DNA of 64,000 nucleotides, from the NCBI RefSeq assembly GCF_014698065.1, contig NZ_JACJSI010000016.1, positions 47,417-111,416 on the forward strand, in the 5' to 3' direction. Within the stretch, counting starts at the first letter, position 1; each line of letters begins with the position of its first letter. The position numbers and the translations under genes are program-made. The notes below the pieces were generated by a model. The model ran no database searches and was not told the DNA's origin. It worked only from the letters and a program-made list of their open reading frames with translations. This DNA comes from Nostoc flagelliforme FACHB-838. GTDB lineage: Bacteria; Cyanobacteriota; Cyanobacteriia; Cyanobacteriales; Nostocaceae. This document shows, one piece after another, positions 21,857 through 61,668 of the stretch.

Positions 21857-24800
21857 ATGTTTAAATTAATTGCTCACATCTCTGACTATAGTATTACAAG
21901 TTTAATTTATGAAGCTGCTGCCACAGTAATTTATCGAGCATACTCCAAGGCTAACGGACACTCAGTTGTTATCAAACTGCTCAAAGCAGAGTATCCCAGT
22001 ATCAAAGAGATTGCTCAACTCAAGCACGAATACGAAATTATCCAAAATCTGAATATTGCAGGTGTAATTAAAGCCCATGAATTAATCAGTTATGACAACG
22101 GCTACAATAATGGTCTAGCACTGGTTTTAGAAGACTTTGGTGGAGAAACTTTAAAATATCAGATATCTACTACAGGGATTGAACTTAAAAAATTTCTTAA
22201 CATTGCCAATCAAATTACTGAAACATTGGGAGAGTTACATACCCACCACATTATCCATAAGGATCTTAAACCCGAAAACATTCTTTATAACCCCAATACC
22301 GAAAAAATAAAATTGATTGACTTCAGCATCGCTTCGCTGCTGTCAAAAGAAAGCCCAGAAATTAGTAGTCTCAACCTTCTAGAAGGAACACTGGCTTATA
22401 TGTCGCCAGAGCAAACCGGACGTATCAACCGAACCTTAGATTATCGTACAGATTTTTACTCATTAGGTGTCAGTTTCTACGAAATGCTGACGGGTCAGCT
22501 TCCCTTCCACAATGCTCAAGACTCAATGGAGTTAGTGCATTGTCACATTGCAAAAATTCCTGTAGCTCCGCATGAGATTAATCCTAATGTACCATTGGGA
22601 ATCTCTGCGATCGCTATGAAACTTCTGAGGAAAACTGCTGAAGACCGTTATCAAAGTGCTTACGGGTTAAAGGCTGATTTAGAGCAAACAACGATACAAC
22701 TGCAAACAAAAGGCAGCATTGACCTTTTTAGCCTAGGTCAGCAGGATTTTTCACATCAATTCCAAATAGCTCAAAAACTTTACGGTCGGGAAGTAGAAGT
22801 AGCAACTCTAATGTCTGCCTTCGATAAAGTTAGCCTTGGCTCGAGCGAAGTTGTGTTGGTAGGAGGATACTCAGGTATCGGCAAATCCTCATTAGTTAAC
22901 GAAGTCCACAAACCGATTGTCCGGCAACGAGGTTACTTTATCGGTGGCAAATTTGACCAACTCAAGCGAGATATTCCTTATGCTTCTTTGATTCAAGCAT
23001 TTCGAGAATTGATGCGACAACTGTTAGCTGAAAGCCAAGCCAGAGTTGAAATTTGGAAAAATAAATTACTACGAGCATTGGGAATTAACGGTCAAGTTAT
23101 TATTGATGTCATCCCGGAAGTAGAACTGATTATTGGACAGCAAGCGCCTGTACCACAGTTGGGAGTTGCTGAGTCTCAAAACCGTTTCAATCGGGTGTTT
23201 AAGCAATTTATCCATGCCTTTACTGCTGCTGAACATCCTTTGGTATTGTTTTTAGATGACCTCCAATGGGCAGATGCCGCCTCTGTGAACCTGGTCGAGA
23301 ATCTGATGACTGACCCAGAAAGTCAGTATCTCTTGCTGATTGGGGCTTACCGAGATAACGAAGTTAGTCCCACCCATCCACTGATGCTAATGCTAGAGAC
23401 AATTCAAGCATTTGGGGCAACCGTTGAAGAGTTACTTTTGAAGCCATTAGCAGCACCTCATATTACTCAACTGGTTACTGACACATTCAATTGCGAATCA
23501 TCTCAGGCAGTACCTTTAGCTGATTTGCTATTTCAAAAAACCCAAGGTAATCCCTTTTTCTTGACTCAGTTACTAAAAGTAGTGCATCAAGATAATCTTT
23601 TGACATTTGATTATCGTTCGGGTTTCTGGAAGTGGGATCTCAACAAAATTCAGGAACAAGCCATTACCGATAATGTTGTCGATTTAATGGTGAATAAAAT
23701 TCAGAGGCTGTCAGAACCGACGCAGCAAGTTTTACAGTTAGCTGCTTGTGTTGGCAACCGATTTAATTTAGAAATTCTAGCTGTAGTAAACGAAAAATCT
23801 CCATCAGCAACAGCAGTTGATTTATGGGAAGCTTTGCGGGCGGGATTAATTCTTCCCTTAAGCGATACTTACAAAATTCCTCAGTTGTTGAATCAGTCAG
23901 AATTGGCAACATACTGTGATACTGCCGTACAAGTTGACTATAAGTTTTTGCACGATCGCGTTCAGCAAGCTGCCTATTCTTTAATTCCAACCGATCAGCA
24001 AAAACAAGTACACCTGAAGATAGGCAAATTACTATTACACAATACTGAAAAAGCCCAGTTAGAAGAACATCTTTTTGATATCGTCAACCATCTCAATGCT
24101 GGTAGCTCATTGATTGTGGAACCAGCAGAAAGATATGAACTGGCAGAATTAAATCTGAAAGCAGGCCAGCGAGCAAAATCATCTTCGGCGTTTGTCACTG
24201 CACTAAAATTGCTGAAAACAGGGATGAGTTATCTACCTGAAAATAGCTGGCAAGATAATTATTTACTCACCTTAACATTATATTTACAAGTTGGAGAAGC
24301 AAAATTTTTAAATGGTAAATATGAGAAAGCTTTGCTGATTTTTGAGCAGACTTTCAGTAAAGTTAAAACTACTCTTGATATGTGCCGAGTAAATGAATAT
24401 CGGATTATGTGTTATCGCATGGAGAATGATTTAAACTCCGCATATAAAATTGGGCTAAATACCTTAGAGCTTTTAGGCTTGGAGTTTACAGCTTATCCCG
24501 ATGATGCATATTTGTTAGAAAAACTTAATCATACCAAAAAAGTTATTGGCGATCGCACAACTTTTAGTCTCGCAGAACTACCGCCAATGCAAGACGAAGA
24601 GAAGCTAATGGCTCAACGCATCTTAAAAGAAGTCTGGCCCATTGCCTACTTTTTAGGATCGAAAGCGTTGCATATCACATCGATGAATATAACTCAACTT
24701 TCAGTTCAGTATGGCAACTCACCAATTTCAGTATTTGGTTATATGCTGTATTCATTCAACCTAGTATTTCAATATGGTGAGGTAGATTCAGGTTATGAGT

Positions 24801-43487: not shown

Positions 43488-43560
43488 GGGGAATTAGCTC
43501 AGTTGGTAGAGCGCTGCGATCGCACCGCAGAGGCCATCGGTTCAAATCCGTTATTCTCCA
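43488..43560 (+). tRNA. tRNA-Ala (anticodon CGC)
   Basis: 73-nt cloverleaf without encoded CCA. Acceptor GGGGAAT pairs with ATTCTCC, with the G3-U70 alanine identity pair. D-arm GCTC...GAGC, anticodon stem CTGCG/CGCAG with loop ATCGCAC (anticodon CGC at 43521-43523), T-arm with TTCAAAT loop and one U-U mismatch. A HIP1 palindrome GCGATCGC spans the anticodon loop. A V-K CAST-type transposon end begins 2 bp after its 3' end. Confidence 0.93.
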
Positions 43561-43562
43561 TT

Positions 43563-43719
43563 TGTACATTAAATAATTATTGTCAGTTTTAAAGAATTAA
43601 TGTCCAGTTTTTCCAAGTTCAGGGGCATAATTTACGTAGTTTCGCGGCTTTTAGCAATTAAATCAATTTTAAAGAATTATTGTCCAGAGTTGAAACCAGT
43701 TTTAAAGAATTATTGTCCA
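43563..43719 (+). mobile_element. Transposon end of Tn7-like/CAST type with TnsB-type repeats
   Basis: Starts TGTACA (43563-43568), as Tn7/Tn5090-like ends of cyanobacterial V-K CASTs do. A partial site ATAATTATTGTCA follows directly, then three full 20-bp sites TTTTAAAGAATTAWTGTCCA at 43587-43606, 43667-43686 and 43700-43719; the last two are identical. All are in the same orientation. The A+T-rich core with TGTC resembles TnsB sites of known V-K elements, such as the ShCAST end as I remember it. Confidence 0.78.
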
Positions 43720-43910
43720 AAATCAGCCTGTAAAACTCGGCTAAATATATGGTTGCTAATTTAATTTATTACAGCAAGCCCAAGGCTCTTAAATAACAAG
43801 AGTAGCTTTAAAGCCCTTTTTTTTGCAGTCTAATTAAAAAAATATACTACCTCTTGTTTTGCTGTTTTCACGCAAACAGAGGCTTCGCTACTATATCGCT
43901 GCGTTTCTAC
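43720..43910. other. Non-coding stretch between transposon end and homing guide
   Basis: No gene. Contains GGGCTT/AAGCCC hairpin material and a T-run (near 43818-43825) that could end or start the minus-strand guide transcript. Confidence 0.4.
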
Positions 43911-43927
43911 GTGCGATCGCAGCGCTC
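43911..43927 (-). CRISPR. Delocalised homing spacer matching the adjacent tRNA-Ala
   Basis: On the minus strand this reads GAGCGCTGCGATCGCAC, identical over 17 nt to 43509-43525 in the tRNA-Ala gene. The match is preceded in the tRNA by GGTA (43505-43508), an NGTN PAM as used by Cas12k. It directly follows a repeat-like sequence ending GGTTTGAAAG. The match stops after 17 nt, as is usual for V-K homing guides. Confidence 0.8.
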
Positions 43928-43947
43928 CTTTCAAACCATTCTAAAAC
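43928..43947 (-). CRISPR. Short atypical CRISPR repeat before the homing spacer
   Basis: Minus-strand GTTTTAGAATGGTTTGAAAG. It keeps both ends of a V-K repeat (GTTT... and ...GGTTTGAAAG) but lacks the central C-rich part, matching the truncated repeats described for delocalised V-K guides. Confidence 0.65.
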
Positions 43948-43985
43948 AGGATTATACAGCCAAAGTGGCTCTTCAATAATGAAAA

Positions 43986-44022
43986 CTTTCTGCTTACCAC
44001 CTAAAGGGAAGACTTTGGAAAC
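43986..44022 (-). CRISPR. Second, degenerate 37-nt CRISPR-repeat-like unit
   Basis: Minus strand: begins GTTTCCAAAGTCTTCCC and ends GGTGGTAAGCAGAAAG. Aligns with the unit at 44067-44100. 38 nt separate it from the short repeat before the homing spacer. Confidence 0.5.
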
Positions 44023-44066
44023 CCCACGCTCCCGTTGCAGGTAAAACGTGGGACAACTTTAATTGT

Positions 44067-44100
44067 CTTTCAACCCACCAAGCGGGAGGGCTTTAGAAAC
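44067..44100 (-). CRISPR. CRISPR-repeat-like unit of V-K type
   Basis: Minus strand: begins GTTTCTAAAGCCCTCCCG and ends GGTGGGTTGAAAG. This strongly resembles the V-K CAST repeat (GTTTCAAC...CCATCCC...GGTGGGTTGAAAG in ShCAST as I recall it). 44 nt separate it from the next unit. Confidence 0.6.
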
Positions 44101-44290
44101 ATTGTACATTTGTTAAAGCTAGTTGTCGTTCTGGCGATCGCGGTGGGTATTTTTGAGCAGAAATGGCCAGTTGTAATAAATATGAATCTAGTTCATCTTG
44201 TTCGGGATGATACATCTGAAACTCCAAAAGCGACGAAAACGAATCTCTATTTTTTTCTCCCTGTGCAGCCCGAAGTTTTATGCCAAACAA
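44093..44290 (-). pseudogene. Fragment of an unrecognised protein gene
   Basis: A minus-strand frame encodes a segment containing DELDSYLLQLAISAQKYPP and SPERQLALTN, which looks like the start of a helical protein but runs into the CRISPR-repeat-like unit and stops. Probably a truncated gene; identity unknown. Confidence 0.3.
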
Positions 44291-44811
44291 CTATTTTAGT
44301 TACGAATCTTTACATTGATCAATGCAAAAAACTAGCTTCTGATGGGCAATCCCAAGGAAAAATCTAACTTTTGCTTAAAAAACTAAGTGAACTTTTGTAA
44401 CTAAAATCCGATATTTGCATAAAAAAAGTTGCAGTAGACAAGAGAAACAATAAAAGCTGTATCGAAACTATATAGGTTATGACTATAAAAAACTCTACCC
44501 ACAAGGGAATGAAATTTTTGGGCATGGGGAATCGGGAATAGGGCATGGGTAAGAATTACCAATGCCCTATGCCCAATACCTCAAGCGGTGGCTATCCCTT
44601 TCCATCCACAAAAAAATAGAGTTTACCGACGCTTTCGATGAATTCGAGAAAACAAAGCCTGACTTAAAGGATTGAAATGCTTTCATAAGTTTGCAGAAAG
44701 CGGTAATTCTGATTCGATTCGACAAAAGTCGTATTAAACCAGATGCAACCGCAGCTTAGTGATGAAAAGTCATTTTTAAAAGCTTATTCAGTAATTGCAG
44801 TGAATTGAACT
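44291..44811. other. Intergenic region
   Basis: No gene. Contains an imperfect palindrome GGGCATGGGGAATCGGGAAT / GCCCTATGCCCAATACC around 44520-44580, a common cyanobacterial intergenic repeat. This is where cas12k and a tracrRNA would be expected if a complete V-K element were present, but neither is seen. Confidence 0.5.
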
Positions 44812-48872: not shown

Positions 48873-49190
48873 ATGGCTGAACAACAGAAAATGACTAGAA
48901 ACGAATTGGAAGCCAAATTAGTTGCCCATGCTTGGCAGGACGAAGCGTTTAAGCAAGAACTAATTAGCAATCCTAGAGCAGCGGTTGAAAGAGAAATTGG
49001 ACAAAAGGTTCCAGAAAGTACAGACATTCGGGTGTTGGAGGAAACGGGTAACACCATCTATTTTGTGCTTCCCAAGAAGCCCAGCATTGACGAATTGTCT
49101 GAGGAACAGTTGGAGGCTGTTGCAGGAGGTGACGGTGGGGATATTCTACCCGATAGCGTTTCAGTTCTTACTGTTTCATGGGACCTTTAA
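48873..49190 (+). CDS. NHLP-type RiPP precursor peptide 1
   Basis: 105 residues. The leader (about 1-86) resembles the nitrile-hydratase-alpha-like NHLP leader, with an acidic ELSEEQLEAVAGG end and a GG site at 85-86. The remaining 19-residue core, DGGDILPDSVSVLTVSWDL, has Ser and Thr but no Cys, so any azolines would be oxazolines. A ribosome site (AGGAA) lies 8 bp upstream. Terminator follows. A nearly identical copy lies 1150 bp downstream, and a fused cyclodehydratase follows that. Confidence 0.88.
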   Translation: MAEQQKMTRNELEAKLVAHAWQDEAFKQELISNPRAAVEREIGQKVPESTDIRVLEETGNTIYFVLPKKPSIDELSEEQLEAVAGGDGGDILPDSVSVLTVSWDL

Positions 49191-49281
49191 TCAACTATCG
49201 TCCTTTAGATATAACAAATCTGGAACCACAGATGATAATCTACGGACTTAGTAACTAGCAGAATTTGCAACTTCATTTGTG

Positions 49282-49323
49282 AAGACCCGCAAGTGTTTTT
49301 AAAAAAGCACTTCGGGTCTTTTA
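49282..49323 (+). terminator. Intrinsic terminator after precursor 1
   Basis: AAGACCCGCAAGTG ... GCACTTCGGGTCTTTT. Duplicated at 50432-50471. Confidence 0.75.
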
Positions 49324-49413
49324 CTTCACATAAAAACTCAATAATATGTAAAAAAGTAGAAAAAACCAGATTGAAATTTATGGAATATTGAGTGAGAAAC
49401 AAAGGTAAAAATA

Positions 49414-49572
49414 ATGATTAATCAACCAAGATTTAAAGCTTGCTTTCGTATCGAAACCTTAGAGTCAGATAGCGTATTTTTGCTGTCTGAGAAAGGTAAT
49501 TTTTTTCTCAGAGGTCGCCTCTATTACCTATTAGCAGCGTTGCTTGATGGTTGCCATAACGTTGATTGCTAA
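49414..49572 (+). pseudogene. Truncated 5' fragment of the cyclodehydratase gene
   Basis: Encodes 52 residues (starts MINQPRFKACFRIETLES) identical in most positions to the N-terminus of the full cyclodehydratase at 50563, then stops at TAA where the sequence joins the duplicated tail of the oxygenase gene (TTGCTAAAAGAAGGACTG). A by-product of the tandem duplication. Confidence 0.85.
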
Positions 49573-49714
49573 AAGAAGGACTGTTAACTAGGGCGCAAGA
49601 AAAGACTCTCTACTCGACCTAGAAGTTGAACGAACTTTAGGCTAAAACCACCATGAAGCATTAGATGTTCGCTTTAGCATTGAGTAGCGAGTTCTACTAT
49701 CAACACAATTTGTA

Positions 49715-49757
49715 AAGACCTACAAGTATATCAAGAAACGCTTGTCAGGTCTTTTTG
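49715..49757 (+). terminator. Duplicated terminator (oxygenase type)
   Basis: Copy of 48570-48612 within the second duplication unit. Confidence 0.7.
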
Positions 49758-49947
49758 CTTATTTATAATCATTCGCTTGCAATGATAGCCTTTAACCTGA
49801 CAATAAATTCAAATAAATATGCTGTTGTGAAGCAATATATGATTCAAACAATCAAGCAAACTAACGCAATCACCGAGAGTTTTAGGTTTAGCTTTATTCT
49901 CATTTAAACCTTAAATAAGCAGGAGCAAAAAAAACGTGAGTCTTAGC

Positions 49948-49966
49948 GAAAAATTGTGGATTGTGA
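49948..49966 (+). promoter_or_regulatory. Shared 19-bp motif upstream of precursor 2
   Basis: GAAAAATTGTGGATTGTGA, identical to 48798-48816. Confidence 0.6.
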
Positions 49967-50022
49967 ATGCAGCTTACATCTTATAAATTGATAGTTGTAA
50001 AGCCTTTATAGGAGATTTAAAA

Positions 50023-50340
50023 ATGGCTGAACAACAGAAAATAACTAAAAACGAATTGGAAGCCAAATTAGTTGCCCATGCTTGGCAGGACGAAGCGTTT
50101 AAGCAAGAACTAATCAGCAATCCCAGAGCAGCGGTTGAAAGAGAAATTGGACAAAAGGTTCCAGAAAGCACAGACATTCGAGTGCTTGAAGAAACTGGTA
50201 ATACCATCTATTTTGTGCTTCCTAAGAAGCCCAGCATTGACGAATTGTCTGAGGAACAGTTGGAGGCTGTTGCAGGTGGTGACGGTGGGGATATTCTACC
50301 CGAAAGCGTTTCAGTTCTTACTGTTTCATGGGACCTTTAA
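50023..50340 (+). CDS. NHLP-type RiPP precursor peptide 2
   Basis: 105 residues, differing from precursor 1 at only a few positions; in the core one Asp is Glu (DILPESV instead of DILPDSV). Same leader, GG site and Ser/Thr-only core. A better ribosome site (AGGAG) precedes it. This copy directly precedes the intact cyclodehydratase gene. Confidence 0.88.
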   Translation: MAEQQKITKNELEAKLVAHAWQDEAFKQELISNPRAAVEREIGQKVPESTDIRVLEETGNTIYFVLPKKPSIDELSEEQLEAVAGGDGGDILPESVSVLTVSWDL

Positions 50341-50431
50341 TCAACTATCGTCCTTTAGATATAACAAATCTGGAACCACAGATGATAATCTACGGGCTTA
50401 GTAACTAGCAGAATTTGCAACTTCATTTGTG

Positions 50432-50471
50432 AAGACCCGCAAGTGTGCTTAAAAAACAATTCGGGTCTTTT
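50432..50471 (+). terminator. Intrinsic terminator after precursor 2
   Basis: AAGACCCGCAAGTGTGC ... AATTCGGGTCTTTT; weaker stem than the copy at 49282. Confidence 0.65.
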
Positions 50472-50562
50472 ACTGCACATAAAAACTCAAGAATATGCAA
50501 AAAAGCAGAAAAAACTAAATTGAAATTTATGAAATATTGAGTGAGAAACAAAGGTAAAAATA

Positions 50563-52821
50563 ATGATTAATCAACCAAGATTTAAAGCTTGCTTTCGTGT
50601 CGAAACTTTAGAGCCAGATAGTGTATTTTTGCTATCTGAGAAAGATAATTTTTTTCTCAAAGGTCGCCTCTATTACCTGTTAGCAGCGTTGCTAGATGGT
50701 TGTCATAACGTTGATAGTATAGTTAACAAGCTTCAAGGGCAAGCTTCTACTGCTGAAATTTACTACGCTTTGACATCCTTAGAAAACAAGGGATACATCA
50801 TTGAAACCGATGACATGATATCTGATGAAAATGCCGCTTTTTGGAATTTTCTTGACGTTGACCCAAAGGTAGCGACAAGCCGATTGCAAACAACTAAAGT
50901 TGCTGTAACTTCATTTGGTACAGTCACACCAGAACCATTTCTTTCCATGCTAGAGTCGCTGAATATTCAAGTCGGTGATGATGGAGATATTTCGGTAGTG
51001 TTTACCGATGACTACCTTCGAGCTGACTTGGATGCGTTTAACCAGAAAGCTTTGAAATTTCAACGCCCTTGGATGCTGGTCAAACCCATAGGAACCATTG
51101 TTTGGGTTGGGCCGATATTTCACCCTGGTAAAACAGGTTGTTGGGCGTGTTTGGCTCAACGCCTCCAAACACAGCGCCGAGTTGAAACTTTTGTACAGAG
51201 AAAAAAGGGCATCGCAGCGCCTTTAACAACTTCCCTGGCTGGACTGCCTTCGACATTCCAAACAGTGCTAGCTATGGCGGCAACGGAAGCCGTTAAATGG
51301 ATTGTTAATAGAGAGAATAAACAGCTTGACAACACTATGGTTACCTTTGATGTCACATCTCTGGAGATACAAAACCACACTTTAACTCGGCGTCCTCAGT
51401 GTCCTTATTGTGGCGAACCAAAATATCTTTTAAACAAAAAACAACAACCCCTTGTTCTTGAAAGTCGGAAGAAAACTTTCACTGCGGATGGGGGACATCG
51501 CTATTCTTCACCTGAAGCAACCTTCAAGGAATATCAACACCACATTAGTCCTATTACGGGCATTGTTAATGGATTAAAGCGATTGCGCCGAACAGAAAAT
51601 GGTTTGATCCACATTTATTCTGGTGGGCAAAATTTGGCTTTAACATACGATAGTTTTCATTCCTTACGCCGAAGTTTGCGAAGCAGAAGTGCAGGCAAGG
51701 GGATGACCGAGTACCAAGCCAAGGTAAGTTGTCTTTGTGAATCGCTTGAGAGATATTCTGGTGTCTTCCAGGGAGACGAAATTAGAAAAAAAGCTAGTTA
51801 CAAAGAAATGGGAGAAGCCGCAATCTACCCCAATGCCTGCATGAATTTCAGCGAAGTACAATACAAAAACCGTAAGGAATGGAACGCAAAATTAACGACT
51901 AGTTTTCACTGGGTTCCAAATCCCTTTGATGAGGAAGTAGAAATTGAGTGGACACCAGTCTGGTCTTTGACATACAAAGAATTTAAATACTTGCCAACCG
52001 CTTACTGCTATTTCAGTTATCCTCTTCTCAATAGAGAAAACGCTTTCTGCAATCCTTGTTCAAACGGCAATGCTGCTGGTAACACAATAGAGGAAGCTAT
52101 CCTTCAGGGATTTATGGAATTGGTAGAACGGGATAGTGTCTGTTTGTGGTGGTACAACCGCGTCAGGAGACCAGTGGTCGATTTAGACACTTTTAATGAG
52201 CCGTATTTCCAATCATTGAAAGATTATTACAAAACAATTCAACGTGATATTTGGGTTCTTGATATAACTAGCGATTTAAATATTCCTACTTTCATTGCTG
52301 TTTCAAGGAGAACTGATAAAGAGATAGAGGATATTATCTTAGGTTGTGGTACCCATTTTGACCCTAGAATTGCCATCCTTCGGGCATTGACCGAGGCGAA
52401 TCAGTCTCTTCCTGCTGTTTTCCCAATTGCTGTTGATGAAAGTGGTGAATATGCCATAGATGATAGTGACACCATAAATTGGTGGAAAACAGCAACGTTA
52501 GAAAATCAGCCTTATCTAGTTCCAGACGAAAGCGTTGCACCAAGAGTTTGTTCTGATTATGCCCAGCTTTGGAGTGATGATTTGCTGAAGGATGTCATGA
52601 CTTGTGTAGACATTGCAGAGAAAAATGGTATGGAAACGTTGGTTCTAGACCAAACCCGTCCTGATGTAGGACTGAGTGTTGTAAAAGTTATTGTTCCTGG
52701 AATGCGTCATTTCTGGGCTAGGTTTGGTCCTGGGCGGCTTTACGATGTTCCCGTCAAGTTAGGTTGGATAAAAGAATCGCAGAGGGAAGATAAACTGAAT
52801 CCTATCCCATTTTTTTATTAA
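50563..52821 (+). CDS. Fused E1-like / YcaO cyclodehydratase (TOMM type)
   Basis: 752 residues. The N-terminal half carries a winged-helix leader-binding domain (about 1-90) and an E1-like fold with zinc cysteines CWAC (about 192-195) and CPYC (about 280-283). The C-terminal half is YcaO: SNGNAAGNTIEEAILQGFME and LVERDSVCLWWYNR are the ATP-binding helix motifs. It ends NPIPFFY rather than the PxPxP tail of some family members. Such enzymes turn Ser/Thr/Cys in precursor peptides into azolines, with the leader held by the first domain. No FMN dehydrogenase gene follows, so products would stay at the azoline stage. Very likely acts on the two NHLP precursors upstream. Confidence 0.92.
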   Translation: MINQPRFKACFRVETLEPDSVFLLSEKDNFFLKGRLYYLLAALLDGCHNVDSIVNKLQGQASTAEIYYALTSLENKGYIIETDDMISDENAAFWNFLDVDPKVATSRLQTTKVAVTSFGTVTPEPFLSMLESLNIQVGDDGDISVVFTDDYLRADLDAFNQKALKFQRPWMLVKPIGTIVWVGPIFHPGKTGCWACLAQRLQTQRRVETFVQRKKGIAAPLTTSLAGLPSTFQTVLAMAATEAVKWIVNRENKQLDNTMVTFDVTSLEIQNHTLTRRPQCPYCGEPKYLLNKKQQPLVLESRKKTFTADGGHRYSSPEATFKEYQHHISPITGIVNGLKRLRRTENGLIHIYSGGQNLALTYDSFHSLRRSLRSRSAGKGMTEYQAKVSCLCESLERYSGVFQGDEIRKKASYKEMGEAAIYPNACMNFSEVQYKNRKEWNAKLTTSFHWVPNPFDEEVEIEWTPVWSLTYKEFKYLPTAYCYFSYPLLNRENAFCNPCSNGNAAGNTIEEAILQGFMELVERDSVCLWWYNRVRRPVVDLDTFNEPYFQSLKDYYKTIQRDIWVLDITSDLNIPTFIAVSRRTDKEIEDIILGCGTHFDPRIAILRALTEANQSLPAVFPIAVDESGEYAIDDSDTINWWKTATLENQPYLVPDESVAPRVCSDYAQLWSDDLLKDVMTCVDIAEKNGMETLVLDQTRPDVGLSVVKVIVPGMRHFWARFGPGRLYDVPVKLGWIKESQREDKLNPIPFFY

Positions 52822-61279: not shown

Positions 61280-61668
61280 GACAAGTAGCGATCGCAAAAC
61301 TCAACTGCATCGTACCAGGATACTTGCTCTACAGGTCGTTGATCCCCTTTGAATTCCGATGGATCAGCTTGTAGCTTTCTGTTGACTTGCGGTAGTGCTG
61401 CTACGGCTTTCCACTGTGCTTGGGTAACTGGATATTTGCCCATGCAAAATTGCTGAATGTTTACTAAATGCTGAGGGCTTTCTGAGCCACTAGCCTCTGT
61501 TTTATTCTCTGGTGAACCCATCATAAAACTACCACTCTTGATCAGCACCATTTCAAGAGTGATAGTGTTGTCCAAGTCTTCGGTGAAATATTCGGCTTGA
61601 CGCTGTTGACGTTTGCTTTCTTGACCTTGAGTGTTTAGTATTATTACATCAAATTCCAATAGCTTCAC
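61276..61668 (-). pseudogene. Truncated formylglycine-generating-enzyme-like (SUMF1) protein
   Basis: 130 residues: a short N-terminal part, then the FGE-sulfatase start (LEMVLIKSGSFMMGSPE ... QQFCMGKYPVTQAQWKAV) ending at FCDRYLS, where the family normally continues for another 120-150 residues including the catalytic cysteines. Ends against fragment copy 1. Confidence 0.78.

Follow-up and report, generated by a model that had tools for sequence, protein, structure and literature searches.

The stretch of DNA that we analysed (64,000 nucleotides, hereafter the window) carries a tRNA-Ala gene with the anticodon CGC that is unbroken despite an insertion behind it, followed by the left end of a transposon, a short guide on the opposite strand, the remains of a CRISPR array and, from position 44109 onwards, unrelated chromosomal sequence (Table 1). 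An earlier note on the window had reported that a minus-strand segment is identical to a piece of the tRNA gene, that this piece is preceded by an NGTN PAM (GGTA), that a repeat-like unit is located directly ahead of the spacer and that a TGTACA transposon end follows 54 bp after the PAM. Upon inspection, all of these were recovered: the identity holds over all 17 nt, the PAM and the TGTACA are found where they were described, and the unit ahead of the spacer reads AATGGTTTGAAAG.

Table 1. Features of the V-K element remnant and its surroundings in the window.
Feature	Position	Strand	Basis or remark
tRNA-Ala (anticodon CGC), target gene	43488-43560	+	ARAGORN; Rfam RF00005, 64.9 bits
PAM GGTA (GTN type), abutting the protospacer	43505-43508	+	read from sequence
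Protospacer GAGCGCTGCGATCGCAC, 17 nt, within tRNA-Ala	43509-43525	+	same letters as the guide
Left-end terminus TGTACA, 54 nt past the PAM	43563-43568	+	starts two bases after tRNA-Ala
Left end with four transposase-binding-type repeats (putatively bound by TnsB)	43563-43717	+	88-89% identity to the V-K left ends of G016 and G031
Left-end repeats	43569-43584, 43589-43604, 43669-43684, 43702-43717	+	TTAAAGAATTATTGTC-like
Homing (anchor) spacer, 17 nt	43911-43927	-	exact match to tRNA-Ala 43509-43525
Truncated repeat R*, AATGGTTTGAAAG, immediately ahead of the spacer (43940-43928 on the minus strand)	43928-43940	-	read from sequence
Degenerate CRISPR repeat, 37 nt	43986-44022	-	aligned to the G016/G031 repeat
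CRISPR repeat, 34 nt, 3 nt short of the relatives' 37-nt repeat	44067-44100	-	sequence alignment
ATTGTACA, up to the break	44101-44108		second TGTACA at 44103-44108, no end repeats adjoining
Unrelated chromosomal sequence sets in: front of an ORF with weak resemblance to sigma factors	44109-44316	-	82-83% over 208 bases from exactly 44109

The TGTACA is uninformative by itself, as 13 copies were found in the window and 13.6 are expected. The repeats behind it are a different matter: TTAAAGAATTATTGTC has 8 matches in the window at up to 3 mismatches (1.89 expected), four of which lie on the plus strand, at 43569, 43589, 43669 and 43702. What was found behind the tRNA gene is a V-K left end, with a TGTACA terminus and end repeats. 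The spacing of 54 nt between the PAM GGTA and the TGTACA is close to that of AcCAST, which integrates about 49-56 bp from its PAM.

A search of 59 genomes (its own included) yielded the best matches to this piece in two relatives, G016 and G031, at the same tRNA-Ala and with 88-89% identity across about 460 bases. In G031 (contig C107) the array is followed by a tracr anti-repeat and by a Cas12k (808 bits to NF038191) that is related to the ShCas12k chains of ShCAST in the PDB, and TnsB-, TnsC- and TniQ-type proteins adjoin the right end, whereas for G016 (C127) Cas12k plus TnsB- and TnsC-type proteins were found, TniQ having been looked for in G031 only. The G016 element is flanked by CCATG on both sides; the G031 element shows no duplication, with CCATG before and AGGGG after it. 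Both CASTs keep the PAM distance of 54 nt seen in the window, but they possess the Cas12k, the Tns proteins and the right ends that were not found for the window piece. The guide of G016 is one base off its own tRNA, in contrast to the exact guide of the window. In relatives of the same family R* equals GGTGGTTTGAAAG or is close to GGTGGTTTGAAAG, and the two altered repeats in the window (37 and 34 nt) are of the kind that makes up the arrays of G016 and G031.

That V-K CASTs have anchor spacers against tRNA genes is already established according to PMC9938897, which gives the order tRNA, left end, R* and its 17-nt anchor spacer, array, tracrRNA and cas12k, and describes an R* of about 12 nt, a GTN PAM and a distance of 46-82 nt to the left end (Fig. 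1 therein). The window shares with the CASTs described there a tRNA that points towards the left end, the GTN PAM, the 17-nt spacer, a truncated repeat of about that length and a PAM-to-end distance inside the 46-82 nt; that is, a truncated repeat and a 17-nt spacer match a GTN-flanked tRNA protospacer at the distance given there. It differs from them in that a tracrRNA, cas12k, tnsB, tnsC, tniQ and a right end were not found in the window, and in that the array, reversed and with repeats of about 37 nt in such CASTs, is down to two altered minus-strand repeats of 37 and 34 nt.

The same layout was observed for three CASTs elsewhere in this genome, located at tRNA-Thr(CGT), tRNA-Met(CAT) and tRNA-Cys(GCA); their PAM and end are 66, 63 and 62 nt apart and their guides have 2, 1 and 0 mismatches, respectively. 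Their R* vary among themselves at the same positions, and the tracr anti-repeat CTTTCTGACCC is common to these three CASTs, G016 and G031. The genome has five cas12k matches (two open full-length genes, one gene split in two pieces and one fragment); the two open full-length genes belong to CASTs at other tRNAs. A search for PF18516 in this genome gave one weak match, on C534.

Since the 17-mer includes GCGATCGC and the window has 53 HIP1 sites, a chance coincidence, in which the tRNA gene and random sequence merely have this HIP1-containing palindrome in common, had to be weighed. The 53 sites amount to 106 readings over both orientations, and among these only the tRNA-Ala and the guide come within 2 mismatches of the 17-mer. 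At up to one mismatch GAGYGCTGCGATCGCAC is found at 9 places in the genome of 10,844,745 bases, two of them exact (the tRNA-Ala and the guide themselves) and seven with one mismatch; a third exact copy of the 17-mer is lacking. The match is therefore not part of HIP1-rich sequence repeated at many unlinked sites; it is such repetition that would, by the earlier note, have refuted its reading. In addition, the guide together with the short repeat (27 nt) was found in nine stretches among 84,980 species genomes, a set that is not independent of the relatives, as four of the nine apparently correspond to G014, G016, G024 and G031. In eight of the nine the PAM and protospacer of a tRNA-Ala begin 298-412 nt before the 27-nt pattern and the end follows 54-55 nt after the PAM; in the ninth (L210) the contig stops 89 nt upstream of the pattern. 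The guide matches its own tRNA exactly in five of these eight loci and is one base (C/T) off in the remaining three. Given the genome copy count, the HIP1 readings and the recurrence in the database, a chance match has practically no probability and was rejected.

The surviving piece of the element measures about 540 bp. The contig of the window (C68) has none of the genome's five cas12k matches, and the end of the window is the end of that contig. No exact match to the anti-repeat word of the tracrRNA, GGGTCAGAAAG, was found in the window, and its match with one mismatch at 61478 is at chance level (1.03 expected). No Tns family was detected in ten scanned ORFs out of the 26 of at least 80 aa to the right of 44000, the ten including every ORF of more than 200 aa. 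Those scanned encode a histidine kinase, a response regulator, a JmjC-type protein, a nitrile-hydratase-alpha-like leader peptide, a YcaO/ThiF-type protein, a Cache-domain protein with a Nif11 start, a ParA-like ATPase, a DUF7005 protein, a cyclic-nucleotide-binding protein and one protein without a family. The region 48873-52821 is likely a peptide-maturation cluster, comprising the YcaO/ThiF-type protein and two near-identical nitrile-hydratase-alpha-like leader peptide ORFs (at 48873, the one scanned, and at 50023). A right end was found in the window neither with six end words at up to 4 mismatches nor as a minus-strand end with two repeats and, because there is no right end, no target-site duplication is visible.

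The earlier note had interpreted the locus as the homing system of a V-K element with its effector outside the window. The first half of this interpretation stands: the identification, from sequence comparison, as a delocalised homing guide and a V-K CAST left end is strongly supported by the relatives and by the three CASTs located elsewhere in this genome. The other half, an effector that is merely beyond the window, does not, as the window stops where its cas12k-free contig stops. A complete element with its effector just past the window was consequently discarded: there is no cas12k on the contig, the window shows no exact tracr anti-repeat, no right end of the families searched and no Tns family in the ten scanned ORFs, and foreign sequence starts at 44109.

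The ORF whose front part lies there (Pfam Sigma70_r4_2 under the cut-off, E 0.0081) runs unbroken past the break point in G031 (C60) and in G017 (C9), elsewhere in the chromosome. A second TGTACA (44103-44108) is placed exactly where the homology to this ORF starts, a position that the reading as a remnant does not account for. A search of this genome with the 1.7 kb or so past the break gave a 67% match on C207 plus short matches only. The former right neighbour of the tRNA-Ala, as present in G031, matches contig C90 (88%), over 35 kb of which the six end words are absent, and on C390, the opposite side of the broken gene, an element end was not found either. Of 74 plasmid records, the 20 listed have a match that covers the tRNA part only. 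Because its flanks map to different places, the window piece marks either the breakpoint of a rearrangement or a false assembly join.

If the join at 44108/44109 were a misassembly, a complete V-K CAST could continue from the array in the cell. The genome is a draft in 726 contigs, the break is without a match in any of 33 flanks from relatives, and array-type repeats are easy sites for false joins. Nevertheless, no cas12k is homeless, as those seen sit on C1, C190 and C401, and the three cas12k loci with a left end in view are at other tRNAs; outside the window, the end word of its family comes close to a match only once in the assembly (C407, 2 mismatches), and what the window retains of the array is already degenerate. 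We consider a misassembly improbable on these grounds. It could also be argued that 43563-44108 is a complete, non-autonomous mini-element with two TGTACA ends, for which a resident CAST supplied the transposition proteins in trans. The second TGTACA is well placed for this, at the very start of the homology to the broken ORF, and short two-ended derivatives exist, e.g. the CCATT-flanked one of 123 bp that G017 has at the same tRNA. Against it, no end repeats adjoin 44103, the bases bordering it do not form a duplication (CCATT ahead of the left end, TTTGT past 44108), TGTACA occurs in the window about as often as expected, and the two flanks map to different chromosomal places in relatives, so that a mini-element seems highly improbable.

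We are thus confident that the window holds the truncated left end of a V-K CAST at tRNA-Ala(CGC), along with the guide that likely directed its insertion, and that the rest of the element, absent from the contig, was probably lost by a later rearrangement. Without a right end the piece would now be immobile, and we take it for what is most likely the dead relic of an element at a favoured landing site and not a working system. By analogy with tested V-K systems, R* and the 17-nt spacer would have given a short minus-strand crRNA that would pair with the tracrRNA and load Cas12k; Cas12k would bind GTA and GAGCGCTGCGATCGCAC within the tRNA gene, with TnsC, TniQ and TnsB joining the TGTACA ends to the DNA 54 nt past the PAM, right behind the intact tRNA. 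Folding of the repeat with a V-K tracrRNA, proposed by the earlier note, did not support this picture: R* formed a duplex with the tracr anti-repeat no better than shuffled sequences did, with 119-167 of 1000 shuffles equally good over 13 nt and an energy weaker than the mean of the shuffles over 30 nt. A promoter scan gave 5 hits (2.3 expected), one of them at 44129-44101 on the minus strand, and carries no evidential weight. The orphan guide might still be used in trans, if it were taken up by the Cas12k of a different resident CAST and brought that CAST or a newly arriving element to tRNA-Ala(CGC); we regard such use as unlikely.

Transposon-type ends recur behind this tRNA-Ala in the genus. 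At least two end-type repeats were found in the 300 nt after the tRNA-Ala in 20 of 34 loci (33 genus relatives and the window, without G028, where only part of the neighbour gene is present), as against 14 of 1268 other 300-nt segments from the same loci, with a rule that overlooks some visible ends (e.g. those of G017 and G023). The PAM GGTA was found in all 34, and by eye three kinds of ends, of the TTAAATAATTA, TTCGCAAATTA and GCGACAAATTA type, can be distinguished after the tRNA. Ten of the 34 loci have the guide at up to one mismatch with CTTTCAA after it (three exact, seven with one mismatch), and in G012, G015, G026 and G027 only guide matches with 3-4 mismatches and without R* were observed. 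The one-base differences in three of the eight database loci and in seven of these ten indicate that the match between guide and tRNA is not under strict co-variation.

Several other arrangements were noticed in these genomes. Tandem V-K insertions were seen in two of them: the right end of the complete element is immediately followed by a piece of an older left end in G031 (C107; L113 13600-14110) and by an end of another family in G016 (C127; L125). The 123-bp element of G017 (C7; L114, around 23898-24020) stands exactly at the tRNA-Ala insertion point, is made up of two V-K-type ends and nothing else, and is followed by a fragment of an older right end. G026 (C1; L180 3255-5932) carries at its tRNA-Ala a 2.7-kb element with left and right ends, the guide region of which stops within the spacer after GTGCGATCGCAG. 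Short elements were also seen as a 145-bp element with two like ends and the duplication ACAGC in G028 (C970; L179 877-1021), in a stretch without a tRNA, and as a two-ended element of 124 bp without duplication in G031 (C121). Ends of the TGTCCATTAAAGAATTATTTGTCA type delimit a related family of about 490-650 bp in several genus genomes (L183 1829-2477, L188 1609-2094 and L003 from 1501, the latter on C413 of G000); no tRNA was found in L183 and L188. A mobile family of short V-K derivatives was considered, but the exact pattern occurs in none of 291 genomes of the order, a set that includes four genomes of the genus (the present one among them) and not G017, and hence has no positive control, and the G017 element is equally explained by deletion in place. 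Among titles and abstracts in the literature we found no V-K-derived miniature elements or tandem V-K insertions, which is not proof of their absence in print.

The presence of a V-K homing guide beside a tRNA gene was thus confirmed from raw sequence, and the window piece belongs to a known kind of element, in decayed form and at a landing site that was used recurrently. One tRNA-Ala gene of the genus has been struck repeatedly, by elements with differing end sequences, and the hits have left remnants, tandem insertions and one two-ended derivative of 123 bp. If guides of this kind were indeed used in trans, dead CASTs would leave guides behind, the landing site would stay open and elements would pile up in tandem. 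V-K CASTs move replicatively, and whether they are able to handle cointegrates in their native hosts is unknown according to PMC11406308. Where many remnants accompany live CASTs, as at this site, the effects of CASTs on a chromosome are naturally recorded.
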